This document shows positions 27,656 to 42,774 of a stretch of 43,083 nucleotides of DNA, piece by piece. The DNA is from Tabrizicola sp. GTDB taxonomy: Bacteria > Pseudomonadota > Alphaproteobacteria > Rhodobacterales > Rhodobacteraceae. The stretch covers positions 1 to 43,083 of the forward strand of contig NZ_JAEULO010000070.1 of the NCBI RefSeq assembly GCF_016793705.1, written 5' to 3'. The notes under the pieces were generated by a model, which worked only from the letters and a program-made list of their open reading frames with translations, was not told the DNA's origin and did not search any database. The number at the start of each line of letters is the position of its first letter. Positions within the stretch are counted from its first letter, which is position 1. The translations under genes were made by a program, and so were the position numbers.

Positions 27656-28642
27656 ATGGCTGAGAAGGTGCTGGTGACGGGCGGCGCGGGATATATCGGG
27701 TCGCATGCCTGCAAGGCACTGGCGCGGGCCGGCTTCGAGCCAGTGGTGTTCGACAATTTGTCGACCGGCTGGAAGGGTGCGGTGAGATGGGGGCCGCTGG
27801 TCGAGGGCGACCTGATGGACCGGGCGAGCATTGATACGGCGCTGGCCGAGCATCGCCCCGCAGCGGTGATGCATTTCGCGGCGCTGTCGCTGGTGGGGGA
27901 GTCGATGCGCGACCCGGGGCGTTACTGGCGGGTGAACGTCGGGGGTGCGCTGAACCTGCTGGAGGCCTGTGCGGCGGCGGGGGTGCGGAACTTCGTCTTT
28001 TCGTCCACCTGCGCGACTTACGGCGATCAGGATGGGGTGCTGCTGACCGAGGAGACGCCGCAGCGGCCGATCAACGCCTATGGCGGGTCGAAGCTGGCGA
28101 TTGAACAAATGCTACAGGATTTCGGCAAGTCAGCCGGGATTTCCCATGTGATCTTTCGATATTTCAACGTTGCGGGCGCTGACCCGGAGGGCGAGACCGG
28201 CGAACAGCATGTGCCGGAGACGCATCTCATCCCGCTGATGCTGGACGCGGTGGCGGGCAAGTGCCCGGCGCTGACGGTCTTCGGGACCGACTATCCGACG
28301 CGCGACGGCACCTGCGTGCGCGACTATGTCCATGTGACGGACCTGGCCGAGGCGCATGTGCTGGGGTTGCGGCGCCTGCTGGACGGCAAGGGCAATGGCG
28401 TTTTCTGCCTGGGCACCGGGCGGGGCTTTTCGGTGCGCGAAGTGATCGAGGCGAGCCGGGCGGTGACCAACCGCGAGGTGCCGGTGGAGATCGGCGGAAG
28501 GCGGGCAGGGGATGCGGCGGCGCTGGTGTCTTCCTCGACCCATGCGATCGAGGAATTGGGGTGGGAGCCGCAGCATTCGACCCTGCGGCAGATGATCGGC
28601 GACGCCTGGGCCTGGGCGCAGAAGCCGGGGTTTGCCGAGTAG
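27656..28642 (+). CDS. galE: UDP-glucose 4-epimerase
   Basis: NAD+-dependent interconversion of UDP-glucose and UDP-galactose. A 328-residue extended SDR with the N-terminal motif VLVTGGAGYIGSHACKALARAG, FDNLSTG, the catalytic SSTCATYG and YGGSK (Tyr-x-x-x-Lys), FRYFNVAGADPEGETGEQH, and GTCVRDYVHVTDLAEAH, all canonical for GalE. A GGCGGAAC ribosome-binding sequence precedes the ATG. It follows the RTX gene closely and, with ugd, supplies sugar nucleotides for surface polysaccharide. Its stop abuts that of the convergent mutarotase-like gene with no spacer. Confidence 0.95.
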   Translation: MAEKVLVTGGAGYIGSHACKALARAGFEPVVFDNLSTGWKGAVRWGPLVEGDLMDRASIDTALAEHRPAAVMHFAALSLVGESMRDPGRYWRVNVGGALNLLEACAAAGVRNFVFSSTCATYGDQDGVLLTEETPQRPINAYGGSKLAIEQMLQDFGKSAGISHVIFRYFNVAGADPEGETGEQHVPETHLIPLMLDAVAGKCPALTVFGTDYPTRDGTCVRDYVHVTDLAEAHVLGLRRLLDGKGNGVFCLGTGRGFSVREVIEASRAVTNREVPVEIGGRRAGDAAALVSSSTHAIEELGWEPQHSTLRQMIGDAWAWAQKPGFAE

Positions 28643-29743
28643 TCAGAGATCCCAGTCGACGGGTTTCTTCGGTGGGGTTGCCTCGGTCCCCAGCCCCAGC
28701 CAGGCGGATCGCAAGGGCAGCTTGCGTTCTGCGCCCCAGTCGCCGGTGATGGTCAGCTCGTCGCCCTCCAGCATCACGCCCGCCACCATCTGGCCCGAGG
28801 GCCAGTGGATCGCCCCAAGGATGTGACGGATTTCAACCGTGCCGAGGGGGTCGAGCGTCAGGAGCGCGGGTTGCCCGGCGGCGGTCAGCGGGTCGGGGGT
28901 TTCCTGCGAGGAGAGGCCGAGGACGGGGAGGGCGGCCCCTTCCTCGATGCCCAGACAGCCGGTGTGGCGGCTGTTCCAGGGGGCGTAGTCGCGTCCGCCG
29001 TTGGAGTGCCAGAGCATGGTCATCGGCAGTGCGCGGGCGTTGCGCAGGGTGAGGATGAGGTCGCCTTCAGTGGGGCGGGTGATGGCGGTCCAGCCGAGGC
29101 GAGAGGAGGGGTCCTCGATCCCGGCGACGAAATCCTCATGCGCCTCGCCCCAGGGGTAGCGGTGCAGGTTGACCGTGCTGCCATCGGCGGCGGGGAATTC
29201 GGCGGCGTCCTCGGCGCGGCGGGGGTAGGCGAGGCGGGAGCGACCCCTCGTGGTCTCCAAGGGCTCGGGCAGGGTTTCCCACCAGCGCTTGCGCGAGAAG
29301 GAGAGCTTCGCGCCGTTCGGGACCGAGATCATCGCGTGGTTGGCGGCGGGCAGCGCGCCGGTGCCGCCGATGAACAGGTGGCGCTGGTAGACGAAGGGGT
29401 GGTCGTCCGCGAGCGACAGCTCCTTGACCACGGTCGCGCCCTGCACGGCGCCTTCCAGCACGGCGCGAAGGGTGGCGGGGGTGGAGGGGGTGACGCGCCA
29501 GTCGCCGTTGGCGGTGAGGCCGTGGAGACCGTCGGGGTCGGCGCCAAAGGGGGCGGCGAGAAAGTCGCCCGCCAGCCAGCGCTGGTGCGGGGGCGCGTCG
29601 GCGGGGACCTCCTCGGGCGACCAGGGGGCGTGGTGCAGGGGGGCGATGGCGGCGCCCTCGTCGGTGACTTCCAGGTGGCGCAGGACGCCGCCCTGCGGGG
29701 CGAAGGTCAGGCGGATGCCGCGGGCGGTGAGCGTGTGGGTCAT
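28643..29743 (-). CDS. Galactose mutarotase-fold protein, function unknown
   Basis: A 366-residue all-beta protein resembling the galactose mutarotase-like/aldose epimerase superfamily: GGVLRHLEVTDEGAAIAPLHHAPW near the N-terminus, repeated short strands, and LPMTMLWHSNGGRDYAPWNSRHTGCLGIEEG where a histidine and an acidic residue in a GxEEG context resemble the sugar-binding face. I cannot confirm the exact catalytic His/Glu pair of GalM. A strong AAAGGAGG lies before the start. It lies 53 bases downstream of the thiolase gene on the same strand and abuts galE, so it could belong to either context; the sugar-related neighbour fits its fold better. Confidence 0.65.
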   Translation of the reverse strand: MTHTLTARGIRLTFAPQGGVLRHLEVTDEGAAIAPLHHAPWSPEEVPADAPPHQRWLAGDFLAAPFGADPDGLHGLTANGDWRVTPSTPATLRAVLEGAVQGATVVKELSLADDHPFVYQRHLFIGGTGALPAANHAMISVPNGAKLSFSRKRWWETLPEPLETTRGRSRLAYPRRAEDAAEFPAADGSTVNLHRYPWGEAHEDFVAGIEDPSSRLGWTAITRPTEGDLILTLRNARALPMTMLWHSNGGRDYAPWNSRHTGCLGIEEGAALPVLGLSSQETPDPLTAAGQPALLTLDPLGTVEIRHILGAIHWPSGQMVAGVMLEGDELTITGDWGAERKLPLRSAWLGLGTEATPPKKPVDWDL

Positions 29744-29796: not shown

Positions 29797-30972
29797 TCAG
29801 GCGGGCAGAAGCTCCAGCGCGACGCCCTGGCCGACGCCGACGCAAAGGGTGACGAGGGCCGATTTGCCGCCGGTTTCGGCCAGGCGGCGGGCGGCGGTTC
29901 CGGCAAGCCGCGCGCCGGACATGCCAAGCGGGTGGCCCATGGCGATGGCGCCGCCATGCGCGTTCAGGCGCGGGTCGTCGTCGACCAGGCCCCAGGCGCG
30001 GGTGCAGGCGAGGACCTGAGCGGCGAAGGCCTCGTTCAGCTCGATCACGTCATGGTCCTGTGCGGCGCGGCCGGTGCGGGCGGTCAGGCGGCTGGCGGCC
30101 TCGACCGGACCTAGCCCCATGATGCGGGGTTCGACGCCCCCCGAGGCGGCGGCTCCGATGCGGGCGAGGGGGGTGAGGCGGTGTTTGCGGACGGCTTCGG
30201 TGCTGGCGAGGATGACGGCGGCGGCCCCGTCGTTCACGCCCGAGGCGTTTCCGGCGGTCACGGTGCCGGGCTTGCGGAAGGGGGCGGGGAGGGCGGCGAG
30301 TTTTTCCAGGCTGGTGGGTCTTGGGTGTTCGTCGGTGCTGACGATGGTGTCGCCCTTCCGGCTGGAGATGATGACCGGCAGGATGTCGGGCGCGTGCCAC
30401 TCGGCGTCGTAGCGGGACTGCGAGAGGAGGGCGTAGCGGTCCTGATCCTCGCGGCTGATGACATGGTCGGCGGCGAGGTTTTCGGCGGTTTCGGGCATGG
30501 ATTCGGTGCCCCAGAGTTGCGCCATCCGGGGGTGGATGAAGCGCCAGCCGATGGTGGTGTCGAAGATTTCCGGGGTGCGGGCGAAGGGGGTTTCGGACTT
30601 CGGCATGACGAAGGGGGCGCGGGACATGCTCTCGACGCCGCCGGCGATGATCACATCGGCGGCCCCGTCGCGGATGGTGCGGGCGGCGGTGATCACCGCA
30701 TCGAGGCCCGAGGCGCAGAGGCGGTTGACGGTCAGCGCGGGGACGGTCGGGCCGAGGCGGGACAGGAGGGTGGCCATGCGGGCGACGTTGCGGTTGTCCT
30801 CGCCCGCCTGGTTGGCGCAACCGAAGATCACCTCGTCGACCGGGAGGTCGTGCAGGTCGAGAAGGCCGTCGATGACGCGGGTGGCGAGGTCGTCGGGGCG
30901 GACGGGGGCAAGCGCCCCGGCATAGCGGCCGATGGGCGTGCGGCGATGGGCGCAGAGGAAGACTTCGGTCAT
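29797..30972 (-). CDS. 3-oxoadipyl-CoA thiolase (PcaF/PaaJ type)
   Basis: Thiolytic cleavage of a 3-oxoacyl-CoA, by similarity 3-oxoadipyl-CoA to succinyl-CoA and acetyl-CoA. A 391-residue thiolase with the nucleophilic Cys86 in NRLCASGLDA, GGVESMSRAPFVM, HGGAIAMGHPLGMSGAR and the second cysteine in LCVGVGQG. The segment FGCANQAGEDNRNVARMA is strongly typical of PcaF/PaaJ rather than biosynthetic acetoacetyl-CoA thiolases. The ATG at 30972 overlaps the stop of the dehydrogenase gene (ATGA), so it is the third gene of a minus-strand operon. An open frame continues upstream past this start but is only a shadow of the dehydrogenase gene. Confidence 0.9.
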   Translation of the reverse strand: MTEVFLCAHRRTPIGRYAGALAPVRPDDLATRVIDGLLDLHDLPVDEVIFGCANQAGEDNRNVARMATLLSRLGPTVPALTVNRLCASGLDAVITAARTIRDGAADVIIAGGVESMSRAPFVMPKSETPFARTPEIFDTTIGWRFIHPRMAQLWGTESMPETAENLAADHVISREDQDRYALLSQSRYDAEWHAPDILPVIISSRKGDTIVSTDEHPRPTSLEKLAALPAPFRKPGTVTAGNASGVNDGAAAVILASTEAVRKHRLTPLARIGAAASGGVEPRIMGLGPVEAASRLTARTGRAAQDHDVIELNEAFAAQVLACTRAWGLVDDDPRLNAHGGAIAMGHPLGMSGARLAGTAARRLAETGGKSALVTLCVGVGQGVALELLPA

Positions 30973-32096
30973 TTCGTCTCCAGCCCCGGTGCGGGGTCGT
31001 AGCGGGGTTTCAGCGCGTCTGGCGCGACGGCGCGGAGGCGGGCGAGTTCGGCGAGGATGGCTGGGCGGCCATACTTGGCCAAGGCCTCGAACGGGCCGCG
31101 GGGGAAGTTGAGGCCGAGGCGCATCGCGGTGTCGATGCCCTCGGGCGTGGTGCCGCCTTCGGCGAGGAGCCAGTGGGCTTCGTTGACGAGGGTCGCCTCG
31201 ATGCGGAGCGCGATGGCTGCGGCGTCGGCGGGCGGGCTGGCGGGCGGGTCGAGGAAGACGAAGCCCTTGCCCGTCTTGCGGCCGAGATTTCCGCTGGCGA
31301 CCTGGGCCTTCAGCGCCGGGAAGGGCAGGTAGCGTGGGTGCTGGCGCATGGCGGCGTGCATCCCCTCGGTCGCGGCGAGGTTGATGTCGGCGCCGATCAG
31401 GTCGATCAGGGCGAAGGGGCCAAGCTTGTAGCCTGCGGCGGTCATGGCGGCGTCGATCTCGGCGGCGCTGCGGCCTTCGGACAGAAGGGCCAGCGCCTCG
31501 CCGTAATAGGGCCGGGCGCAGCGGTTGACGATGAAGCCGGGGCGGTCGGGGCAGAGGATGACGGTCTTGCCTGCGGCCTCGGTCCATTGCTGCGCGCGGG
31601 CGATGGTGGTGGGGGAGGTGCCCGCATGGGGGGCGAGTTCTACCAGCTTCATCGCTGGCGGCGGGTTGAAGAAATGCAGCGCGAGGGTGCGGTCGGGGTG
31701 TTTCAGGCCGTCTGCGATGGCGTGGATCGGCAGCGAGGAGGTGTTGGTGGCGAGGATCGCGTCGGGGGCGATGAGCGGCTCCAGTGCGGCGAAGAGGGCC
31801 TGCTTGGCCTCCAGCTTCTCGACGATGGCCTCGATGATCAACTGGCAGGGGGCAAGTTCGGCCAAATCCCCGGCCACGGTGAGGCGGGCGAGGGTGGCAT
31901 CGCGGTCGGCCTCGGTCAGCCTTCCGGCGGTGACGCGGGATTGCAGGGTGTCGCCAAGCCTGGCGAGAGCGCTGTCTCGGGCGGGCTGATGGGCGTCGGT
32001 GGCGATGACCGGGAAGCCCGCCTGGGCGTAGACCTGTGCGATGCCGAGGCCCATGGTGCCCAGCCCGACGATGCCGATGGCGGGGCGAGCGGTCAT
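30969..32096 (-). CDS. 3-hydroxyacyl-CoA dehydrogenase
   Basis: NAD+-dependent oxidation of 3-hydroxyacyl-CoA to 3-oxoacyl-CoA. The 375-residue protein has the Rossmann motif [21 protein letters not shown], then ATNTSSLPI, the catalytic histidine in [17 protein letters not shown], and [16 protein letters not shown], followed by two helical C-terminal domains (the second from about residue 290, with a degenerate GINFPRGP-like motif). This domain layout resembles PaaH-type enzymes of aromatic degradation. Start and stop overlap the neighbouring genes by four bases on each side, so the three minus-strand genes are tightly coupled. The substrate is assigned only by context. Confidence 0.9.
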
Positions 32097-32848
32097 TGGC
32101 CGATAAACCCCGGCTTGCGCTTTTCGCGGAAGGCGCGGATGCCCTCGGCCTTGTCGGCGGTGTCGAGCAGGGTCTCGAAGGCGGCGCGTTCCTGGTCCAG
32201 CGCCAGCGCGCCTTCCGCCCCGGCGACAAGGGCGGCCTTGGCGGCTTGCAGGGCGAGGGGCGCGCGCTCGGCCAGCTTTTCGACCAGCGGGCGGGCGATC
32301 TCCTCCGCCGTGCCGTCCGAGAGCCAGCCCGCGATGCCCCAGTCATGGGCGGTGGCAGCAGGCAGGATTTCACCGGTCAGGACCAGCCGGGTCGCCCGTG
32401 CCCGGCCCACCAGCGACAACAACCGCTGCGCCCCGCCCGCGCCGGGGATCAGGCCGAGGTTCGTCTCGGGCAGGCCGACCCGCGCCGTCGCCCCCAGCAC
32501 AAAACAATCGGCCATCAGCGCCAGTTCGAACCCGCCGCCCAGGGCGAAACCGTCCACGGCGGCGACCAGCGGCTTCGGAAAGGCGCGGATGCGGGCCCAA
32601 TGCGCCTTGCGGGGGTCTGCTGCGCCATCCGCCGAAGATTTCCCCTCGATCTCGCCGATGTCGGCCCCGGCGGCGAAGTTGCCATCGGCGCCGGTCAAGA
32701 GCACTGCGCGACAGGCAGGGTCGCCCGCGAGTTCGGTCAACACCCCCGCCAGTTGCGCCAGAAGCGCGGTGTTCAGCGCGTTCTTCGCCTGCGGCCGGTT
32801 CAGCACCAGCCGGGTCCAGGCCCCCTGCGGTTCGACGATCAGATCCAT
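32093..32848 (-). CDS. Enoyl-CoA hydratase/isomerase, canonical active site
   Basis: Crotonase-fold enzyme adding water to a 2-enoyl-CoA, about 251 residues. Both catalytic glutamates of hydratases are present, in [12 protein letters not shown] and [15 protein letters not shown], and the oxyanion-hole segment is [11 protein letters not shown]. The internal ATG at 32848 is preferred because AGG lies nine bases upstream; an ATG at 32857 would add three residues but has no spacing to its AGG. It is the first gene of the minus-strand operon and starts 28 bases from the operator region shared with the divergent monooxygenase. It contrasts with the other crotonase in the cluster (36398-37225), which lacks both glutamates. 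Confidence 0.92.
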
Positions 32849-32875
32849 GCTTTGCATCCTGCACTGGCGGCACGT

Positions 32876-32907
32876 AATTTCAAGCTAGAAATTTCAAGCT
32901 TGAAATT
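32876..32907. promoter_or_regulatory. Tandem 18-bp palindromes in the divergent catabolic promoter (putative MarR operators)
   Basis: AATTTCAAGCTTGAAATT (32890-32907) is a perfect 18-bp palindrome. Its left neighbour AATTTCAAGCTAGAAATT (32876-32893) is the same element with one substitution, sharing four bases and offset by 14 bp. The 99-110-bp divergent gap is the only AT-rich stretch here and separates two catabolic operons. Size and symmetry fit a MarR dimer site, and a MarR gene lies in the plus-strand operon. I infer repression of both operons, relieved by a CoA-thioester or aromatic ligand. Confidence 0.7.
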
Positions 32908-32956
32908 ATTTTATCACGGTGGCAGGCTCCGGTCAGTCAGGGACTCGGAGGGTCAG

Positions 32957-35242
32957 GTGAAAGTTCTTTGCCTTGGGGGTGGTCCGGCGGGCCTGTATTT
33001 CGCCATCTCGATGAAGCTGCGCGATCCTTCGCACCAGGTCACGGTTCTGGAGCGGAACAAAGCGAACGACACGTTCGGCTGGGGTGTCGTGCTGTCGGAC
33101 GACGCGATGGCGCGGATGAAGAAGAACGATCCGCAATCCTACGAGGCGATCAAGGCGAGCTTCGCCTATTGGGACGACATTGCCGTGGTGCATCGCGGCG
33201 AACGGATCGTGTCGGGCGGGCATGGCTTTGCCGGGATCGGCCGGATGAAGATGCTGCTTCTGTTGCAGGACCGCGCGCGTGAGCTTGGGGTGGACCTGCG
33301 CTTCGAGACGGAGTTCAAGTCGGCCGAGGATTACCGCAAGGATTATGACCTGGTGGTGGCGACGGACGGGATCAACAGCCTGGTGCGCAAGGAATATGCC
33401 GAGGTGTTCAAGCCCGACATCGACCAGCGGCTGGTCAAGTTCATCTGGCTGGGCACGCACCAGAAATTCGACGACGCCTTCACCTTCATCTTCGAGGAGA
33501 CCGAGTGGGGCTGGTTCTGGGCGCATGTCTACCAGTTCGACAATGACACCGCGACCTTCATCGTCGACTGCATGCCCGAGACCTGGGACCGGGCGGGCTT
33601 CGCCGAGATGTCGAAGGAAGAGATCGTCGCCACCTGCCAGCGGATCTTCGCGAAGCATCTGGGCTGTCACGACCTGATCTCGAACGCCAATCACCTGCGG
33701 GGCAGCGCGGTCTGGATGCAGTTCCCGCGCGTGCTGTGCGAGCGGTGGTACAACGGCAATGTCGTGCTGATGGGCGACGCGGCGGCGACGGGGCATTATT
33801 CCATCGGCTCGGGCTCGCGGCTGGCCTTCGACTCGGCGATCGCGCTGGCGGATTACCTGCATTCCGAACCGACGATGGAGGCCGCCTTCCAGCGCTATCA
33901 GGAGGAGCGGCGGGTCGAGGTCCTGCGCCTGCAATCGGCGGCGCGGAACAGCCTGGAGTGGTTCGAGCGGGTCGAGCGCTATCTGGACATGGCGCCGATG
34001 CAGTTCGCCTATTCGCTGTTGACCCGCAGCCAGCGGATTTCGCATGAGAATCTGCGGTTGCGTGATCCGGAGTGGTTGCGCAAGGCCGAGGACTGGTTCC
34101 AGCGCCAGGCCGGGGGGCAGGCGGGCCGTCAGCCGATGTTCGCGCCGTTCCAGCTGCGCGGGATGCGGCTGGAGAACCGCGTCGTCGTGTCGCCGATGGC
34201 GCAGTACAAGGCGGTGGACGGATGCCCGACCGATTGGCACTTCTCGCATTACGCCGAACGGACCAAGGGCGGGGCGGGTCTGGTCTATGTCGAGATGACC
34301 TGCGTCTCGCCCGAGGGGCGGATCACGCCGGGCTGTCCGGGGCTTTATGCGCCCGAGCATGAGGTAGCGTGGAAGCGACTGGCCGATTTCGTCCATGCCG
34401 AGACCCATGCGAAGCTCTGCTGCCAGATCGGTCATTCGGGGCGGAAGGGCAGCACGCAACTCGGCTGGGAGGAGGGGGACGCCCCGCTGGCGTCGGGCAA
34501 CTGGCCGGTGATGAGCGCGAGTGCGATCCCGTGGAGCGCGGGCAATGCGGTGCCGAAGGCGATGACGCGGGCGGACATGGATGCGGTGCGCGAACAGTTC
34601 GTCGCCTCGACCAAGATGGCCGAGCGTGCCGGATTTGACATGATCGAACTTCATGCGGCGCATGGCTATCTGATTTCCTCCTTCATCAGCCCGAAATCGA
34701 ACATCCGGACGGATGAGTACGGTGGCAGTCTGGAGAACCGCCTGCGCTGGCCGCTGGAGGTGTTCCGCGCGATGCGGGCCGTGTGGCCCGAGGACAAGCC
34801 GATGTCGGTGCGGATTTCGGCGAGTGACTGGGTGGGCGATGAAGGGGTGACGCCGGAGGAGGCGGTGGAGATCGCCAAGGCCTTCGCGGAAGCCGGGGCG
34901 GATATCATCGACGTCAGCGCCGGGCAGACCAGCACGGACGCAAAGCCGGTCTATGGCCGGATGTTCCAGACCCCGTTCAGCGACCGTATCCGCAATGAGG
35001 CGGGGCTGGCGACGATGGCGGTCGGCAACATCACCGAGGCGGATCAGGTGAACGGCATCCTGCTGGCAGGGCGCGCCGATCTGGTGGCGCTGGCGCGACC
35101 GCATCTGGCCGATCCCTACTGGACGCTGCACGCGGCGGTGAAGGCGGGGGACGAGGGCGTCTTCTGGCCGAATCCCTATCTCAACGGCCGCGACCAGGCG
35201 CTGCGCTTGCAGGCGCGGGCGCAAGAGGTGATCCGGGTATGA
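32957..35242 (+). CDS. 2-aminobenzoyl-CoA monooxygenase/reductase-type fusion (also annotated bifunctional salicylyl-CoA 5-hydroxylase/oxidoreductase)
   Basis: A 761-residue natural fusion. Residues 1 to about 390 are a class A flavin monooxygenase: FAD motif [16 protein letters not shown], DGxNS-type [12 protein letters not shown], and the second FAD motif [20 protein letters not shown]. From residue 394 ([20 protein letters not shown]) to the end is an old-yellow-enzyme FMN reductase with [17 protein letters not shown] and [12 protein letters not shown]. The Azoarcus evansii 2-aminobenzoyl-CoA monooxygenase/reductase has this layout: it hydroxylates and then reduces the ring of anthraniloyl-CoA. 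The start is GTG at 32957 with CGGAGGG six bases upstream; the frame is open further upstream but antisense to the hydratase gene. First gene of the plus-strand operon. 2-Aminobenzoyl-CoA is the preferred substrate from context; salicylyl-CoA is the alternative. Confidence 0.88.
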
Positions 35243-35976
35243 CGCTTCAGGGCAAGCGCGTATTGATCACGGGGGGCGGTTCCGGTGCCGGGGCCGACCT
35301 TGCGCGCGGCTTTGCCGAGGCGGGGGCGGAGGTGGTGATCGCGGGCCGCCGGGCTGAGGCGCTGAAGGCGGTGGCAGAGCCGCTGGGTGCGCGCTGGGTG
35401 ACTGCCGATGTGACCGACGAGGCCTCGGTCGCGGCGATGTTCCGGGAGGCCGGGCCTTGCGACATTGTCATCGCCAATGCGGGCGCGGCGGACAGCGGGG
35501 TGCTGGCGAAGACCTCGCTGGCCCAGTGGAACGCGATGATTGCGGTGAACCTGACCGGCGTGTTCCTGACCTTCCGCGCGGCGCTTGGCCAGTTCCGGGG
35601 CGAGGGGCGGCTGATCGCGGTGGCCTCGACGGCGGGGCTGAAGGGCTATGCCAAGGTCGCGCCCTATGCCGCGGCGAAGCATGGGGTGATCGGCATGGTG
35701 CGGTCGCTGGCGCTGGAAGTGGCGCGGAAGGGGATCACGGTCAACGCGATCTGTCCGGGGTTCCTCGACACGCCGATGACGGAACATTCGGCGCAGGTGA
35801 TCGCGGATAAGACCGGCAAGAGCCTGGCCGAGGCGCGGGCGGCGCTGGAGGGTCTGAGCCCTCAGGGGCGGCTTTACCAACCCGCGGAAGTGACGGCGGC
35901 GGCGTTGTACCTGGCCTCTGACGTGGCGTCGGGCGTGAACGGGGCTTGCCTGACCATTTCGGGGGGCGAGGTGTGA
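35239..35976 (+). CDS. Short-chain dehydrogenase/reductase (SDR)
   Basis: NAD(P)-dependent oxidoreductase of 245 residues. Motifs: [22 protein letters not shown] (TGxxxGxG cofactor loop), IVIANAGAA (NAG), the catalytic serine in [15 protein letters not shown] (YxxxK), and [11 protein letters not shown]. It starts in a four-base overlap (ATGA) with the stop of the monooxygenase/reductase gene and ends in a GTGA overlap with the MarR gene. In the proposed pathway it could oxidise the ring hydroxyl or the ring-derived hydroxyacyl-CoA; the substrate is inferred from context only. Confidence 0.9.
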
Positions 35977-36401
35977 GCGAGGGATCGAAGCGGCGGCTGA
36001 AGATGTGGATCCGGCTGCTGGGCGTGACCCGGGCGGCTGAAAACGGGTTGCGCGAATACCTGCGGGTCAATCACGACACCACCTTGCCGCGGTTCGACGT
36101 GATGGCCGCGCTCTACCGCCGCCGCGAGGGCGTCACGATGAGCGAGCTTTCCCGGATGCTTCTGGTGTCGAACGGCAATGCGACGGCGGTGGTGGACCGG
36201 CTGGAGGCCGAGGAACTGGTCCGGCGGACGCCCTCGGAACTGGACCGGCGGACGGTGCATGTGGCACTGACGGCGGAGGGGACGACGGCTTTCGAGACCA
36301 TGGCCGAGGGGCACGAGGCGGAAGTGGCGCGTCTGTTCGCAGGGCTGAGGGACGAGGAACTGGAGCAGATGACGGCGATCCTGAAGAGGATGGGAAGATG
36401 A
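35973..36401 (+). CDS. MarR-family transcriptional regulator
   Basis: A 142-residue winged helix-turn-helix protein. The DNA-binding core is [20 protein letters not shown] with the recognition helix [19 protein letters not shown], and the wing [14 protein letters not shown]. The helical N- and C-termini form the dimer interface. It starts at GTG 35973, overlapping the SDR stop, and ends with ATGA overlapping the next gene, so it is made in proportion to the enzymes it probably controls. The tandem 18-bp palindromes at 32876-32907 are its most likely operators. MarR proteins of aromatic-CoA pathways commonly respond to CoA thioesters; the ligand here is unknown. Confidence 0.9.
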
Positions 36402-37225
36402 GCTTTTCGGTGGGGACGACGATGGCCGGTCTGAAGCCGGAGCATTTCCTGTGGGAGGTGAAGGACCGGATTGCCGTGGTGCGGCTGAACCGGCCCGACC
36501 GCAAGAACCCGCTGACCTTCGACAGCTATGCGGAATTGCGCGACAGCTTCCGCGCACTGGTCTATGCGACGGATGTGGACGTGGTGGTCTTTGCGTCAAA
36601 TGGCGGGAACTTCTGTTCGGGGGGCGATGTGCATGACATCATCGGCCCGCTGATCGGCCTGCCGATGAAGGACCTGCTGGCTTTCACGCGGATGACCGGC
36701 GATCTGGTCAAGGCGATGATTTCCTGCGGGAAACCGATCATCGCGGCGGTGGATGGGGTGGCGGTGGGGGCGGGCGCGATCATCGCGATGGCCTCGGACC
36801 TGCGGCTGGCGACGCCCGCTGCCAAATGCGCCTTCCTGTTCACGCGGGTGGGGCTTGCGGGCTGCGACATGGGCGCCTGTGCGATGCTGCCCCGGATCGT
36901 CGGGCAGGGCCGGGCGGCGGAGCTTCTGTACACCGGCCGGGTGATGGGGGCCGAGGAGGGAGAACACTGGGGCTTCTGGAACGCGCTTCATGCGCCCGAG
37001 GTTCTGGAGGCCGAGGCGATGGCCCTGGCCCGGCGATTGGCCTCGGGGCCGGTCTTTGCGCATGGGATCACCAAGACCCAGCTGAACCAGGAATGGAACA
37101 TGGGGCTGGAGCAGGCGATCGAGGCCGAGGCGCAGGCCCAGGCGATCTGCATGCAGACCAAGGACTTCGAGCGGGCCTATCGGGCCTTCGTCGCCAAGGA
37201 GAAACCCGTCTTCGCGGGTGACTGA
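36398..37225 (+). CDS. Atypical enoyl-CoA hydratase/isomerase-family protein lacking both catalytic glutamates
   Basis: Crotonase-fold protein of 275 residues. The CoA-binding and oxyanion-hole regions are present ([27 protein letters not shown]). The first hydratase glutamate is replaced ([11 protein letters not shown], Ile128) and the second position is Thr149/Arg150 (LFTRVGLAG). An aspartate (Asp157 in GCDMGACAM) lies 12 residues before the conserved RIVG glycine, which I believe is where 4-chlorobenzoyl-CoA dehalogenase has its nucleophilic aspartate. The protein is therefore probably not a simple hydratase; hydrolytic ring opening or substitution on a ring-CoA substrate is plausible in this cluster. 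It starts with ATGA overlapping the MarR stop. Fold assignment is firm; the reaction is inferred. Confidence 0.85.
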
Positions 37226-37274
37226 GCCCCGGGGCGCTGCCCCGGACCCCGGGATATTCAGAGACAGAAAATGG
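37224..37274 (+). repeat. Dispersed intergenic repeat, copy C, ending in a start codon
   Basis: A GC hairpin (CCGGGGC-GCT-GCCCCGG, 37229-37245) is followed by ACCCCGGGATATTC and GAGACAGAAAATGG. The CCCGGGATAYTT core and GACAGAAAATGG tail match copy A almost exactly, and the final ATG at 37271 is used as the start of the acyl-CoA dehydrogenase gene. No Shine-Dalgarno is visible other than the purine-rich tail of the repeat. Confidence 0.6.
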
Positions 37275-38407
37275 CAGATCAGAGTTTCCTTTCCTGGCCG
37301 TTCTTCGAGCCCCGCCACCGCGAAATGGCGGCGGCGCTGGAAGAGTGGTGCGTGGCCAATCTGCCGGTGTCGCATGGTGATGTGGACGCTGCCTGCAAGG
37401 GGCTGGTCGCGGCGCTGGGGGCGGGAGGCTGGCTTGGGCACTCCGGCGCGGGGGAGGGGGAGCGGCTGGATGTGCGCTCGTTGTGCCTGATCCGCGAGAC
37501 GCTGGCGCGGCATGACGGGCTGGCGGATTTCGCCTTTGCGATGCAGGGGCTGGGGATGGGGGCGGTGTCTCTGTTCGGCACGGCGGGGCAGCGGGAATGG
37601 CTGGCGAAGACGCGGGCGGGGCAGGCGATTTCCGGCTTTGCGCTGACCGAGCCGGGGTCGGGGTCGGATGTGGCGGCCACGGCGACCATGGCAGAGAAGG
37701 TGCCGGGCGGCTGGCGGCTCAACGGCGAGAAGACCTATATCTCGAATGGCGGGATAGCCGACGTCTACGTGATCTTCGCCCGCACCGGCGAGGCGCCGGG
37801 GGCGAAGGGGCTGTCGGCCTTCCTCATGCCTGCGGCGACCAAGGGGCTGGAGGTGGTGAGCCGGATCGAAGTGATGGCGCCGCATCCGCTGGCGCATCTG
37901 CGGTTGAACGACGTGGAGCTGCCCGAGGAGGCGCTGATCGGCAAGCCGGGCGATGGCTTCAAGATCGCCATGTCGGTCTTGGACGTTTTCCGCTCCACCG
38001 TCGGCGCGGCGGCGCTGGGGTTTGCCCGGCGGGCGCTGGACGAGGCGCTGGCGCGCACGCAGGGCCGCCGCATCCAGGGGCAGGCGCTGTCGGAGCTGCA
38101 ACTGGTGCAGGGGCACCTTGCCGACATGGCGCTGGAGATCGACGCCTCGGCGCTGCTGGTCTACCGGGCGGCCTGGGTGAAGGACATGGGCGCCGCGCGG
38201 GTCAGCCGCGAGGCGGCGATGGCGAAGCTCTACTCCACCGAGGCGGCGAGCCGTGTGATCGACATGGCGGTGCAGTTGCACGGCGGCGACGGGGTGCGGC
38301 AGGGCTTTGCGGTCGAAAGCCTGTATCGCGAAATCCGGGCCTTGCGCATTTACGAGGGCGCCAGCGACGTCCAGCGCATCATCATCGCGCGGGGCCTTCT
38401 GGGATGA
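37271..38407 (+). CDS. Acyl-CoA dehydrogenase
   Basis: FAD-dependent alpha,beta-dehydrogenation of an acyl-CoA, 378 residues. The helical N-terminal domain begins [19 protein letters not shown]. The flavin-contact strand is [17 protein letters not shown] with [16 protein letters not shown], and the C-terminal motif [12 protein letters not shown] is followed by the catalytic glutamate in [15 protein letters not shown]. All catalytic features are intact. The start codon is the last part of a dispersed repeat (37224-37274), so the upstream 5' region is a mobile-type sequence rather than a dedicated ribosome-binding site. It overlaps the thioesterase start by four bases. In the pathway it would act on the ring-opened or alicyclic acyl-CoA. 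Confidence 0.93.
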
Positions 38408-38820
38408 CCTATGAGCGCCTGATCCAGATCGAGTTCAACCATTGCGACCCTGCGGGGATCGTCTTCTATCCACGCTATTTCGAGATGGTGAACTCGGTCG
38501 TCGAGAATTTCTTCGCCGATGTGGTCGGCCGCTCCTTCGCGCAGATGCACAACGACGGGGCGTCGAACGGCGTCCCGACGGTCGCGATCGAGGCGGCGTT
38601 CCAGCGCCCGTCACGTCTGGGCGACAAGGTGCGCTTCACGCTGAAGGTCGAGAAGATCGGTGGCTCCTCGACGCGGGTGCTGGTCGAGGGTTTCGGGCCG
38701 GACGGCCCACGGTTGCAGGTCCGGATGACGGTTGCCTGGATCAACCAGATGAAAGCGGCGCCCTGGCCATCAGAGATGCGGGCGGCGCTGGATCACTACA
38801 GGGAGACGCAGGATGCATGA
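38404..38820 (+). CDS. 4-hydroxybenzoyl-CoA thioesterase-family (hotdog) acyl-CoA thioesterase
   Basis: Hotdog-fold thioesterase of 138 residues. The active-site motif FNHCDPAGIVFYPRYFEM contains the catalytic Asp15 in the position used by 4-hydroxybenzoyl-CoA thioesterase. VAIEAAFQRPSRLGDKVRF and the strand CVRVEK-like segment complete the fold. It begins in ATGA overlap with the dehydrogenase stop and overlaps the RidA gene by eight bases. In an aromatic-CoA pathway it may recover CoA from dead-end thioesters, or it could release a free aromatic acid (gentisate) if the monooxygenase acts on salicylyl-CoA. The sequence does not decide between these. Confidence 0.9.
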   Translation: MTYERLIQIEFNHCDPAGIVFYPRYFEMVNSVVENFFADVVGRSFAQMHNDGASNGVPTVAIEAAFQRPSRLGDKVRFTLKVEKIGGSSTRVLVEGFGPDGPRLQVRMTVAWINQMKAAPWPSEMRAALDHYRETQDA

Positions 38821-39211
38821 GATCCTTCATCCGAAGCACTGGAAGCCTGCCAAAGGCTACGCCAACGGCATGGCAGCCGAGGGGCGGATGGTGTTTACCG
38901 GCGGGATCATCGGCTGGAACGCCGAGCAGGACTTCGAGACGGATGATTTCGTGGGCCAGGTCGAACAGGCGCTGAAATCCATCGTCGAGGTGCTGGCCTG
39001 TGCCGGGGCGGGACCGGAGCATCTGGTGCGGCTGACCTGGTATGTCACGGACAAGCGCGAATACCTGGATCGGCTGAAGGACCTGGGCGCGGTGTACAAG
39101 GCCGTCATCGGGCGGAATTACCCGGCAATGGCCCTGGTGCAGGTGGTGGCGCTGGTCGAGGACCGGGCCAAAGTGGAAATCGAGGCGACCGCCGTCATTC
39201 CGAAGTCGTGA
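38813..39211 (+). CDS. RidA/YjgF/YER057c-family protein lacking the conserved arginine
   Basis: A 132-residue trimeric chorismate-mutase-like-fold protein of the enamine/imine deaminase family. Landmarks: GMAAEGRMVFTGGIIGW, QVEQALKSIVEVLACAGAGPEHLVRLTWYVTD and VEIEATAVIPK with the glutamate equivalent to E. coli RidA Glu120. The arginine that binds the substrate carboxylate in RidA (Arg105 in the P-x-R-S context) is methionine here (NYPAMALV, Met106). The 2-iminoacid carboxylate pocket is therefore lost. The gene overlaps the thioesterase stop by eight bases and sits just before the ligase. The monooxygenase product is an enamine attached to a CoA thioester rather than to a free acid, so a specialised deaminase of that intermediate is an attractive but unproven role. 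Confidence 0.87.
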   Translation: MHEILHPKHWKPAKGYANGMAAEGRMVFTGGIIGWNAEQDFETDDFVGQVEQALKSIVEVLACAGAGPEHLVRLTWYVTDKREYLDRLKDLGAVYKAVIGRNYPAMALVQVVALVEDRAKVEIEATAVIPKS

Positions 39212-39237
39212 CGCACAGGGTTTGGGAGGACTCCGCA

Positions 39238-40851
39238 ATGCTTGGACCGACAGGACATAGCGATACATTCACCCGTGACCGTCTGCCCGCCCCCGAGGAC
39301 TGGCCGGTCATAAAACTGGCTGGTTTCGACTACCCCGACTGGCTGAATGCCGGGGTGGAACTGACCGACGCGATGGTGACGAAGGGGTTTGGCGACAACA
39401 CCGCGCTGATCGGCAACGGGCGCAGCCGGACCTACAAGGAGCTGGCCGACTGGTCGAACCGCATCGCCCATGCGCTGGTCGAGGATTACGGGGTCAGGCC
39501 CGGCAACCGGGTGCTGATCCGGTCGGCCAACAACCCGGCGATGGTGGCCTGCTGGCTTGCGGCGACGAAAGCGGGCGCGGTGGTAGTCAACACCATGCCG
39601 ATGCTGCGCGCTGGAGAGCTGAGCCAGATCGTCGACAAGGCCGAGATCACCCATGCGCTCTGCGACACGCGGCTGATGGAGGAGCTTGTCGCCTGCGCCA
39701 AGACATCGAAATTCCTGCGGACGGTGGTTGGCTTCGACGGCACCGCGAACCATGACGCCGAGCTGGACCGGGTGGCGCTGTCGAAATCGGTGAAGTTCCA
39801 GGCGGTGCAGACCGGGCGCGACGACGTGGCGCTTCTGGGGTTTACCTCGGGCACGACCGGGGAGCCCAAGGCCACGGCGCATTTCCACCGCGACCTGATG
39901 ATCATCGCGGACGGCTATGCGAAGGAAGTGCTTGGCGTCACGCCGGAGGACGTCTTCATCGGCTCGCCTCCGCTGGCGTTCACCTTCGGGCTTGGCGGGC
40001 TGGCCGTGTTCCCGCTGCGCTTCGGCGCCGCGGCGGCGCTATTGGAGCAGGCCAGTCCGCCGAACATGATCGAGATCATCCAGAAGCACCGGGCAACGGT
40101 CTGCTTCACCGCACCCACGGCCTACCGCGTGATGCTGAAGGCGATGGCGGAAGGGGCGGACCTGTCCTCCTTGCGCGCCGCCGTCAGTGCGGGGGAAACG
40201 CTGCCCGGTCCGGTCTACGAGGAATGGATGGCCAAGACCGGCAAGCCGATGCTGGACGGGATCGGCGCCACGGAGATGCTGCATATCTTCATCACCAACC
40301 GCTTTGACGACCACCAGCCTGCCTGTACCGGCCGCCCCGTGACGGGCTACGAGGCGAAGATCGTCGGCGAGGACATGGCCGAACTTCCCCGCGGGGAAGT
40401 CGGGCGGCTGGCGGTGCGCGGGCCGACCGGCTGCCGCTATCTGTCTGACAAGCGGCAGAAGAGCTACGTCAAGGCGGGCTGGAACCTCACCGGCGACAGC
40501 TTCTGGCAGGACGAGGAGGGCCGCTTCCACTTTGCCGCCCGGTCGGACGACATGATCATCAGCGCGGGCTACAACATTGCCGGGCCGGAGGTGGAGGCGG
40601 CGCTCCTGTCGCATCCGGCGGTGCTGGAATGCGCGGTGATCGGCACTGCGGACGAAGAGCGCGGGCAGATCGTCGAGGCCCATGTCGTGCTTGCGCCGGG
40701 GCACCTTCCGGACGGGCTTCTGGTGAAGATCCTGCAGGATCACGTGAAGCGCACCATCGCGCCCTACAAGTATCCCCGCCGGGTGGTCTTTACCGACGCG
40801 CTGCCGAAGACGCAGACCGGAAAGATCCAGCGCTTCCGCCTGCGGACCTGA
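39238..40851 (+). CDS. 2-aminobenzoate--CoA ligase / benzoate-CoA ligase-family enzyme
   Basis: Adenylate-forming enzyme that activates an aromatic acid with ATP and CoA, 537 residues. Core motifs: LLGFTSGTTGEPKATAHFHR (A3 phosphate loop), DGIGATEMLHIF (A5), GWNLTGDSFWQDEEG (A7), SAGYNIAGPEVE (A8) and the catalytic lysine in LPKTQTGKIQRFRLR (A10). It belongs to the benzoate-CoA ligase group, which includes 2-aminobenzoate-CoA ligase; its operon with the monooxygenase/reductase favours anthranilate. The ATG at 39238 has GGGAGGA eight bases upstream; an earlier in-frame start overlapping the RidA gene is unlikely. It is the last gene of the plus-strand operon and provides the first step of the pathway. 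A 98-base gap leads to infA. Confidence 0.92.
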   Translation: MLGPTGHSDTFTRDRLPAPEDWPVIKLAGFDYPDWLNAGVELTDAMVTKGFGDNTALIGNGRSRTYKELADWSNRIAHALVEDYGVRPGNRVLIRSANNPAMVACWLAATKAGAVVVNTMPMLRAGELSQIVDKAEITHALCDTRLMEELVACAKTSKFLRTVVGFDGTANHDAELDRVALSKSVKFQAVQTGRDDVALLGFTSGTTGEPKATAHFHRDLMIIADGYAKEVLGVTPEDVFIGSPPLAFTFGLGGLAVFPLRFGAAAALLEQASPPNMIEIIQKHRATVCFTAPTAYRVMLKAMAEGADLSSLRAAVSAGETLPGPVYEEWMAKTGKPMLDGIGATEMLHIFITNRFDDHQPACTGRPVTGYEAKIVGEDMAELPRGEVGRLAVRGPTGCRYLSDKRQKSYVKAGWNLTGDSFWQDEEGRFHFAARSDDMIISAGYNIAGPEVEAALLSHPAVLECAVIGTADEERGQIVEAHVVLAPGHLPDGLLVKILQDHVKRTIAPYKYPRRVVFTDALPKTQTGKIQRFRLRT

Positions 40852-40949: not shown

Positions 40950-41168
40950 ATGGCCAAGGAAGACATTCTCGAATTCCCCGGTGTCGTGAAGGAACTCCTG
41001 CCGAACGCGACATTCAGGGTCGAACTCGAGAACGGCCATGAACTGATCGCGACCATGGCAGGCAAGATGCGCAAGAACCGCATCCGGGTTCTGGCCGGTG
41101 ACAAGGTGCAGGTCGAAATGACCCCGTATGACCTGTCGAAGGGCCGCATCAACTATCGCTTCAAGTGA
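40950..41168 (+). CDS. infA: Translation initiation factor IF-1
   Basis: Small OB-fold protein that occupies the A site of the 30S subunit during initiation. The 72-residue sequence [19 protein letters not shown], then [24 protein letters not shown] and [17 protein letters not shown], is nearly identical to alphaproteobacterial IF-1. GGAGAG lies just upstream. Its last bases overlap the maf start (the infA stop and the maf ATG share four bases), the usual organisation infA-maf-RNase E/G-yacG. Confidence 0.98.
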
Positions 41169-41740
41169 AATTCATCCTTGGATCGGGCAGCCCGCGCCGG
41201 AAGGAATTGCTGGCGGGGCTCGGGATCGTACCCGACCTGATCCTGCCCCCTGACATCGACGAAGACCCCCGCAGGGGAGAATTGCCCCGGCCCTATTGCC
41301 TGCGGCTGGCAGAGGAGAAGGCACGCGCCGTGCCTTCCGGTCCCGATGACGTGGTGCTCTGCGCCGACACCACCGTCGCGCTTGGCCGCCGCATCCTTGG
41401 CAAACCCGCAGACGCGGGCGAGGCCGCAGCTTTCCTGACGGCTCTGGGGGGCCGCAGGCATCAGGTGATTACCGCCATCGCGGTGCGCCGGGGTGCGCGC
41501 GTACTGGTGCGCGAAAGTGTCAGCACCGTCAAGATGAAGCGCCTCTCCGACGCCGAGATCAACGGCTATCTCGCCAGCGGAGAATGGCAGGGCAAGGCGG
41601 GCGGCTACGGCATCCAGGGGCTTGCGGGCGCGCTGATTCCATGGATTTCGGGGTCGTTTACCGGCATCATGGGCCTGCCGGTGGCCGAGACAGCAGCGCT
41701 TCTCTCGGCAGTCGGCTATCCGGTCTGGAGGCAGGAATGA
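41165..41740 (+). CDS. maf: Maf-family nucleoside triphosphate pyrophosphatase (YhdE-like)
   Basis: House-cleaning enzyme that hydrolyses non-canonical or excess nucleoside triphosphates (dTTP/UTP in the YhdE group) to the monophosphate. The 191-residue length is normal. The N-terminal [30 protein letters not shown] and the [16 protein letters not shown] segment are the Maf signatures. It overlaps infA at its start and the RNase E/G gene at its stop (ATGA), so all three are translated together. Confidence 0.95.
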
Positions 41741-42774
41741 AGGGCCGCGTTCTGGTGCTGGACGAGATCGAGGGCCGTCAGGCGGCCGCGCTGATGATCG
41801 ACGGGCGGCTGGAAGAGCTTGCCATCGATCCGGCGGGCGATGTGGCGGTCCCCGGCGCGATCTACCGCGCGGTTGCTGATCGTCCGGTCAAGGGGCAGGG
41901 CGGCATCTTCGTGAAGCTGCCTGCCGGCTCCGGTTTCCTGCGCCAGATTTCCGGTGTCGCACCCGGCCAGCGCCTGCTTGTGCAGGTGACGGGGCCGACC
42001 GAACCCGGCAAGGCCATTCCGGTCGCCACGCGGCTGCTCTTCAAGTCGCGCTTCGCCATCCTTACGCCGGACGCGCCCGGCCTGAACATCTCGCGCCGGA
42101 TCAAGGATGAGGAGCGTCGCGCCGATCTTGCCGACATGGCCGAGACGGGGATGGCAGGGGCGGACGAACGGCTGGGCCTGATCCTGCGCTCTGGCTGCCT
42201 TGAGGCCGAGGATACCGCCATAGCGGAGGACATCGCCGCGATGCGTGGCCTCGCCGAGGCGGTTCTGGCCGACTTGAGCGGCCCGCCGGAGCTTCTGGTC
42301 GACGGCCCCTCGGCGCATGACCTTGCCTTCCGCGACTGGCTGGACCCGGCGGTGGACGATGCCGACACCGATCCCGAAAGCTTTGGCCGCCACGGCGTGA
42401 CCGAGGCGCTGGATGCCCTGCGTAGCCCGCGTGTCGCGCTGGAGGCGGGGGCACATATGATGCTGGAGCCGACGCGCGCCCTGGTGGCGGTCGATGTGAA
42501 CACCGGCCCCGACACCTCTCCGGCAGCAAGCCTGAAGGCCAATATCGCCGCCGCCCGCGACCTGCCACGGCAGCTGCGGCTGCGGGGGCTGGGCGGGCAG
42601 GTGGTGGTGGATTTTGCGCCGATGCCGAAGCGCGACCGGCACATCCTCGACCAGGTCATGAAGGCCGCATTCAAGGCCGAGGGCGAGACGAACCTTGCCG
42701 GTTGGACGACGCTTGGCCTCTACGAGCTGACCCGCAAGCGCGACCGCCTGCCGCTGACCGAGCTTCTGTCATGA
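41737..42774 (+). CDS. Ribonuclease E/G family protein, short form
   Basis: Endoribonuclease-type protein of 345 residues, shorter than E. coli RNase G (489). It has an N-terminal S1-like segment and the DNase I-like catalytic core with two metal-binding aspartates, Asp253 ([10 protein letters not shown]) and Asp292 ([11 protein letters not shown]). It ends about 53 residues after the second aspartate, so the zinc-link (CPxCxG) and the small domain used for tetramerisation in RNase E/G are absent. The start overlaps the maf stop. A short protein with its own CPxCG motif (yacG) begins four bases before its stop. The reaction on RNA is inferred from conserved core residues; dimer or tetramer state is unknown. 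Confidence 0.88.

Follow-up and report, generated by a model that had tools for sequence, protein, structure and literature searches.

A gene cluster for predicted anthranilate degradation through 2-aminobenzoyl-CoA in a Tabrizicola-like genome, with a Rid protein carrying methionine at the catalytic arginine position

In Azoarcus (Aromatoleum) evansii, 2-aminobenzoate (anthranilate) is degraded aerobically by a 2-aminobenzoate-coenzyme A (CoA) ligase, a monooxygenase/reductase that yields a non-aromatic ester, and subsequent beta-oxidation, as outlined in the available text of PMC4539516. We analysed a cluster with the same elements at positions 29797-40851 of a 43,083-nucleotide stretch of DNA, hereafter the window (contig C10 in our numbering), from a Tabrizicola-like Rhodobacteraceae genome. 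The cluster comprises eleven closely packed genes in two divergent operons: a plus-strand (right) operon of eight genes, encoding a fusion oxygenase, a short-chain dehydrogenase/reductase (SDR), a MarR regulator, a crotonase, an acyl-CoA dehydrogenase, a thioesterase, a Rid protein and a ligase, and a minus-strand (left) operon of three, encoding a hydratase, a hydroxyacyl-CoA dehydrogenase and a thiolase. Very probably it degrades anthranilate made from tryptophan via 2-aminobenzoyl-CoA, the specificity of the ligase and all reactions after the monooxygenase/reductase being predicted from sequence. Anthranilate is a by-product of tryptophan breakdown, and kynureninase is the enzyme that forms it. 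The A. evansii operon of Schuhle et al. (2001) reportedly contains eight genes, including a MarR gene, a transport gene and a 'translation inhibitor' gene whose product is presumably a Rid protein. Compared with it, the window adds the SDR, the thioesterase and the divergent hydratase-dehydrogenase-thiolase operon, and lacks the transport gene that the Azoarcus operon is said to carry. The matches listed included no record from Azoarcus or Aromatoleum.

Two further systems are closely related. In Arthrobacter sp. Rue61a, compared here by its description, two anthranilate-CoA ligases have been verified and the fusion enzyme has a homologue (PMC3534580); the gene order of a related Arthrobacter plasmid locus (L274) differs from that of the window. 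A CoA-dependent route from salicylate to gentisate is also known, as described in the accessible parts of PMC13215587 and PMC11335346, and clusters of the SdgC-type salicylyl-CoA 5-hydroxylase likewise encode a homologue of the fusion protein. On the matter of ANTHRANILATE or salicylate, four tests (regulation, gene neighbours, the active site of the old yellow enzyme (OYE) half, and the Rid protein) favour anthranilate, and this conclusion is well supported.

Conservation of the cluster and residue 566 of the fusion oxygenase

The fusion oxygenase is a single 761-amino-acid chain with a PF01494 and a PF00724 domain. With presence defined as an E value of at most 1e-120, 83 of the 397 genomes sampled from the phylum have it, as do 52 of the 232 genera; in these searches, full scoring was limited to two oxygenase and up to ten Rid candidates per genome, and second copies may be missed. 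The 185 oxygenase loci were reduced to 163 by a 95% identity cut on the oxygenase, and 124 of them extend for at least 7 kb to either side of it. In these 124 loci, the right-operon partners were common (MarR, 115; PRK08258 crotonase, 114; SDR, 109; acyl-CoA dehydrogenase, 108; ligase, 103; Rid, 93; thioesterase, 58), whereas the left-operon genes were scarcer (hydroxyacyl-CoA dehydrogenase, 20; thiolase, 18; PaaF-like hydratase, 18). The right operon is therefore a conserved module and the left operon a minority addition, and the gene arrangement is not due to chance. A comparison of gene order among relatives had been suggested in the initial annotation, and it shows that the right-operon set is widely kept around the oxygenase.

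The nearest named relative of the oxygenase (95% identity) belongs to a Tabrizicola metagenome-assembled genome. Related clusters are present in the named strains Paracoccus denitrificans PD1222 and Ruegeria pomeroyi DSS-3. A Deinococcus plasmid carries a similar module, and plasmids of Actinomycetota and haloarchaea carry sets with different gene orders or fewer genes. In two haloarchaeal plasmids (L276, 9366-22356; L277, 11063-18042), a set of oxygenase, Rid, acyl-CoA dehydrogenase, SDR and crotonase genes is followed by a gene annotated as trpB. On a Ruegeria pomeroyi megaplasmid (L037, 20090-25077), genes for RebB-family R-bodies and for a sigma factor lie immediately downstream of the cluster. 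When viral contigs were scanned with the oxygenase, no match was obtained. The name 'bifunctional salicylyl-CoA 5-hydroxylase/oxidoreductase' was attached to 39 of the 60 best plasmid matches, most of the others being unannotated.

The OYE HxxH motif of the window's protein is intact, with His566, His569 and Tyr571. Position 566 was compared in 185 distinct oxygenase homologues (the duplicates L084 = L299 and L214 = L302 were counted once). In a first comparison, 153 of 154 proteins with beta-oxidation or Rid surroundings had His566, and the four gentisate-linked proteins all had Gln. In the enlarged set, homologues with a crotonase, acyl-CoA dehydrogenase or Rid gene nearby had His566 in 162 of 163 cases and Asn in one, and those with other or short surroundings had His566 in 12 of 13 and Asn in one; in contrast, all nine homologues with a gentisate dioxygenase homologue nearby had Gln566. 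Eight of these nine also showed Arg in place of Lys497 and Glu in place of Gln657. Three of the nine belong to the set of 124 loci, and six are named plasmid records that were added (L280 and L292-L296). By the time that loci L292-L296 were retrieved, the first four had already shown the Gln rule; L292 and L293 were chosen as the closest relatives of L088, and L294-L296 as Novosphingobium records.

The stretches examined around the nine gentisate-linked loci contained no PRK08258 crotonase (250 bits), no acyl-CoA dehydrogenase and no Rid match of at least 45 bits, and thus no Rid of the window's Met type; the weak Rid match (32 bits) of L295 and L296 has Asn where RidA has its Arg. A thioesterase gene lies near seven of the nine, as it does in the window. 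The nine sit at three places in the oxygenase tree (FastTree, Shimodaira-Hasegawa-like support), one of which is a long haloarchaeal branch of unsure placement, so that the count of three depends partly on this row. Judged from sequence, the NCBI 'salicylyl-CoA 5-hydroxylase' family comprises two types, which are split by His or Gln at position 566 and by gene neighbours. From the known reactions, the OYE half would be required for ring reduction, whereas plain hydroxylation to gentisyl-CoA would not require it. A separate oxygenase clade with His566 lies away from pathway genes in three genomes (L113, L114 and L115); the Rid gene of these genomes is at a different place, which in two cases is within a pathway cluster (L284 and L285).

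A promoter palindrome shared with kynureninase

The divergent promoter contains a perfect 18-bp palindrome and an imperfect copy of it, neither of which is expected by chance in the window. Searches for this palindrome allowed up to 2 mismatches and covered, besides the window's genome, 61 relatives, of which 32 belong to the genus (22 oxygenase-bearing and 10 oxygenase-free) and 29 lie outside it. The rest of the 3.84-Mb window genome has a single additional site, an exact copy at C1:145397-145414, approximately 71 bp from the edge of a kynureninase match (C1:144205-145326, minus strand, 292 bits, cut-off 246); a tryptophan 2,3-dioxygenase homologue comes after the kynureninase gene on the same strand. 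Within the genus, the palindrome was present in all 22 genomes with the oxygenase and in none of the 10 without it (Fisher 1.6e-8). It precedes the oxygenase in 20 of the 22, and it precedes kynureninase in 15 of the 22 but in none of the 10 oxygenase-free genomes, seven of which have a kynureninase above the cut-off. Outside the genus the search matched 5 of 29 genomes, and a reversed control pattern also matched in two of these five. Upstream of the oxygenase, 26 of 152 loci have exact TCAAGCTTGA palindromes, against an expectation of 0.1 in base shuffles. Both operons and the kynureninase gene are probably under the control of the MarR protein, acting through the common palindrome; the binding of this protein and its inducer are predictions.

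Genes of the kynurenine pathway also occur as neighbours. Within approximately 10 kb of the oxygenase, kynureninase was found in 20 of the 124 loci and tryptophan 2,3-dioxygenase in 30; with a KynB-like cyclase also counted, 41 loci have at least one kyn gene. In Thalassospira marina, kynureninase and tryptophan 2,3-dioxygenase genes, both above the family cut-offs, lie within the operon; tryptophan 2,3-dioxygenase adjoins the cluster on the R. pomeroyi megaplasmid, kynureninase lies beside it on the Arthrobacter plasmid, and a Rhodococcus plasmid has both kynureninase (238 bits, just below the cut-off) and tryptophan 2,3-dioxygenase beside the cluster. Among the 61 relatives, a kynureninase above the cut-off was present in 26 of the 28 genomes that have the oxygenase and in 13 of the 33 that lack it; its presence alone does not discriminate.

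The Rid protein and the competing explanations

Rid proteins already serve in the breakdown of aromatic amines, where one deaminates 2-aminomuconate (PMC6742747); the available text of PMC6449761 likewise treats such roles and predicts Rid proteins in benzoate regulons. RidA and the 2-aminomuconate deaminase AmnE share with the window's Rid the family PF01042 and a Glu, but Met (or, in two haloarchaea, Leu and Val) replaces their Arg in the window-type proteins. Arg117 of AmnE is among its conserved cleft residues (PMC6742747), and we take it to be the equivalent of the RidA catalytic Arg. That Arg contacts the substrate carboxylate in RidA and is essential, and approximately 10% of RidA proteins carry Ser at its position, according to the accessible part of PMC4433059.

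A close relative of the window's Rid was defined by an E value of at most 1e-18, a limit set after other Rid proteins had been seen to score far lower. Of the 397 genomes, 81 had both this Rid and the oxygenase, two the oxygenase only, one the Rid only and 313 neither; the corresponding Fisher value of 3e-81 is not a true probability, because the genomes are related. The two oxygenase-only genomes (G301 and G354) are gentisate-linked. In the Rid-only genome (G406), the Rid gene is grouped with MarR, crotonase, acyl-CoA dehydrogenase and ligase genes, and since pathway genes are grouped there and the adjoining sequence is unread, it is no clear exception.

The window's protein has Met106 where RidA has its catalytic Arg105. 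Across 116 Rid domains from 113 of the 163 loci, with the window's own reference copy excluded, Met occupied this position in 114; Asn occupied it in the remaining two, both of them weaker second Rid matches at loci whose first Rid has Met. The Rid proteins of the Deinococcus, Arthrobacter, Rhodococcus and Streptantibioticus clusters likewise have Met, and those of the two haloarchaea (L276 and L277) Leu and Val. As controls, we considered Rid proteins outside such clusters: of the four others in the window's genome, one yielded a residue, Ser, and those of G301, G354 and G406 had Arg (three), Asp, Asn and Trp, with Pro in a poorly aligned fragment; four family matches (L223, L225, L268 and L269) fell outside the model and were left unaligned. 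E122, kept in at least 95% of 115 Rid rows (the window's protein counted twice), is in our reading the conserved Glu of RidA. The identification of the protein as a classical RidA was rejected on the replacement of the catalytic Arg by Met; the 'RidA-family' name in the initial annotation is thus right as to the Rid family and wrong if taken to mean a standard RidA. Second Rid copies, 42-47% identical to the window's Rid, occur in several genomes of one genus; the four that were fetched (L286-L289) all have Ser where RidA has its Arg, and the fetched stretches around them contain no other gene of the cluster.

We propose that the Rid protein would deaminate the CoA-bound enamine produced by the oxygenase, a chemistry predicted from sequence. 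A hydrophobic residue would suit this Rid better than Arg because the carboxyl group of the substrate is masked as a CoA ester. On balance, we lean towards the view that these proteins form a dedicated subfamily for the CoA-thioester enamine released by the monooxygenase/reductase, in which the carboxylate-binding Arg was exchanged for a near-invariant Met as the substrate lacks a free carboxylate, and that in parallel the fusion oxygenase was converted into a salicylyl-CoA hydroxylase on three or more occasions, always with OYE His changed to Gln and without this Rid. Among the matches listed in a literature search, in which subscription papers are poorly covered, nothing tied a Rid protein to the anthranilate CoA pathway or described the His/Gln switch.

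Several observations weigh against the assignment of the cluster to anthranilate. The NCBIfam label of the fusion protein is 'bifunctional salicylyl-CoA 5-hydroxylase/oxidoreductase', and the best solved match of the ligase, the anthranilate-CoA ligase 4wv3 (285 bits), leads benzoate-CoA ligase (271 bits) by a small margin. The palindrome, at up to 2 mismatches, was not found before kynureninase in 7 of the 22 oxygenase-bearing genomes of the genus; in G020 it was found at kynureninase only and not at the oxygenase, and in G031 it lies on a different contig from a broken oxygenase gene. The window's genome also encodes a gentisate-dioxygenase-like protein (C73:42126-43139, below the family cut-off). 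A route in which the ligase forms salicylyl-CoA, the fusion protein hydroxylates it at carbon 5 and the thioesterase releases gentisate would agree with this gene, with the PRK08255 family name, the cut-off of which is exceeded, and with the presence of a thioesterase gene in the cluster. However, the gentisate-dioxygenase-like gene is the only homologue that the family search detected in the genome, and none lies near the fusion gene. The family was matched in 12 of the 61 relatives (two above the cut-off), and because nine of these 12 have the oxygenase, a distant gentisate dioxygenase does not discriminate. Near the oxygenase, the enzyme occurs in 3 of the 124 loci, or nine in all after targeted additions, and these have Gln566 and lack the crotonase and a Met-type Rid in the stretches examined, whereas the window has His566, a Met-type Rid, the crotonase, the acyl-CoA dehydrogenase and a palindrome in common with kynureninase. 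We therefore rejected the salicylate/gentisate reading of this cluster as highly improbable. The initial annotation had likewise preferred the 2-aminobenzoyl-CoA route, and the palindrome at kynureninase, the kyn neighbours, His566 and the co-occurrence with Rid bear it out. Contig C73 also carries another OYE homologue.

Another substrate, such as an ortho-substituted benzoate or an auxin, might feed a pathway in which anthranilate is merely one intermediate, since iad-type auxin loci convert indole-3-acetate into anthranilic acid and have MarR regulators (available text of PMC9613470); the restriction of the palindrome in the genome, at up to 2 mismatches, to the cluster and the kynureninase promoter makes this very unlikely. 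A stronger challenge concerns the Rid step only, namely that the enamine hydrolyses spontaneously or within another enzyme and that the role of the Rid lies in binding, regulation or repair. The window's Rid lacks the Arg that is essential in RidA; the Rid4-Rid7 subfamilies, which also lack it, are thought unable to hydrolyse imines (PMC4433059, in the part available); the oxygenase product is reported to be unstable below pH 5, with hydrolytic deamination (PMC3534580, likewise); and, at the limit used, 31 of the 124 loci lack a nearby Rid. These points count against a deaminase, but the 397-genome test showed that the Rid is usually present somewhere in an oxygenase-bearing genome, in near-perfect co-occurrence, and Rid genes are found in actinobacterial and haloarchaeal clusters as well. 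Moreover, the Glu (E122) is retained, and the free carboxylate to which the lost Arg binds in RidA (PMC4433059) is missing from a CoA ester. We regard a Rid that is not the pathway deaminase as a credible but less probable explanation than a Rid deaminase.

Gene organization and predicted pathway

The features of the cluster are listed in Table 1. The initial annotation had described eleven genes in two divergent operons with a common promoter region, and all were recovered with their coordinates and families; the MarR gene, absent from its list of gene products, completes the eleven. Eight of the nine within-operon junctions overlap by 4-8 bases, and the crotonase and acyl-CoA dehydrogenase genes are separated by a 45-base gap. 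By reading of translations, the flanks encode galE-like and aldose-epimerase-like proteins on the left (from 27656-29743) and maf-like and RNase E/G-like proteins on the right (41165-42774), seemingly unrelated to the cluster.

Table 1. Coordinates of genes and promoter elements in the window, with the supporting matches
Feature	Position	Strand	Evidence
PcaF-type 3-oxoacyl-CoA thiolase	29797..30972	-	TIGR02430 550 bits (below cut-off 597); PRK09050 560 bits (below 605); catalytic Cys/His motifs by inspection
3-hydroxyacyl-CoA dehydrogenase	30969..32096	-	PRK08268 371 bits (below cut-off 508); PF02737 and PF00725 above cut-off
PaaF-like enoyl-CoA hydratase	32093..32857	-	PRK09674 251 bits (below cut-off 371); PF00378; both catalytic Glu by inspection
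Imperfect second palindrome copy	32876..32893		1 mismatch; 0 expected in window shuffles
Perfect 18-bp palindrome AATTTCAAGCTTGAAATT, candidate MarR operator	32890..32907		Exact copy before kynureninase
Proposed 2-aminobenzoyl-CoA monooxygenase/reductase (flavin adenine dinucleotide monooxygenase-OYE fusion)	32957..35242	+	PRK08255 1267 bits (above cut-off 1078); PF01494 and PF00724; GTG start; His566 intact
SDR oxidoreductase	35239..35976	+	PF13561/PF00106; conserved Y143, K147
MarR-family regulator	35973..36401	+	PF12802; closest solved sequence 3boq, 62 bits; GTG start overlapping SDR stop chosen among possible starts
Crotonase PRK08258, proposed ring-opening or isomerising enzyme	36398..37225	+	PRK08258 476 bits (above cut-off 330); closest solved sequence 3g64; conserved Asp157
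Acyl-CoA dehydrogenase	37271..38407	+	PF00441, PF02770; conserved E362 in RIYEGA
4HBT-type acyl-CoA thioesterase	38404..38820	+	PF13279
Rid-family protein, Met106 replacing catalytic Arg	38813..39211	+	PF01042 70 bits
Aryl-CoA ligase, proposed anthranilate-CoA ligase	39208..40851	+	TIGR02262 359 bits (just below cut-off 375); best solved match 4wv3; GTG start

The two crotonases differ in their active sites. The left, PaaF-like enzyme has both catalytic Glu residues, whereas in the right enzyme, PRK08258, Asp157 aligns with the PaaG Asp and is kept in 95% or more of the 145 aligned rows, two of which are the window's own protein, and our reading of the alignment places Ile at the first catalytic Glu. 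PRK08258 is thus unlikely to be a plain hydratase, and we suggest that it may open the ring of a beta-keto thioester.

In the pathway that we propose, the ligase would convert anthranilate to 2-aminobenzoyl-CoA, and the fusion flavoenzyme would hydroxylate carbon 5 with O2 while its OYE half reduces the ring, giving 2-amino-5-oxocyclohex-1-ene-1-carbonyl-CoA, a reaction known from A. evansii. The Rid protein would hydrolyse this enamine to ammonia and 2,5-dioxocyclohexane-carbonyl-CoA, the 5-keto group of which may be reduced by the SDR. The Asp-type crotonase would then open the beta-keto ring hydrolytically to 4-hydroxy- or 4-oxopimeloyl-CoA, and a single round of beta-oxidation by the acyl-CoA dehydrogenase, the PaaF-like hydratase, the hydroxyacyl-CoA dehydrogenase and the thiolase would yield acetyl-CoA and a C5 dicarboxylyl-CoA, from which the thioesterase may free the C5 product. 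MarR would govern both operons and kynureninase. In Arthrobacter Rue61a, CoA esters of C7H7NO3 and C7H8O4 acids were reported only in anthranilate-grown cells, and the authors suggest a cyclohexanedione-carboxyl-CoA for the C7H8O4 ester (PMC3534580, in the text available); this formula fits the deaminated intermediate of the proposed scheme. The initial annotation had called the cluster 'complete' and stated that it covers deamination. The genes are indeed present, but this wording exceeds the sequence evidence, as the steps after the monooxygenase/reductase are predictions and the Rid lacks the classical Arg.

The cluster is a further instance of a known, little-studied pathway, and the generalisations on Rid and on His/Gln566 look new. 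The common palindrome ties tryptophan breakdown through kynurenine directly to the anthranilate CoA route. The Rid proposal assigns a checkable function to a gene that was reportedly described as a mere 'translation inhibitor' when the pathway was published and, if true, it challenges the view that Rid proteins without the Arg cannot be deaminases. If it holds, the His/Gln566 rule together with the Rid partner would separate anthranilate degraders from salicylate degraders and correct many annotations.

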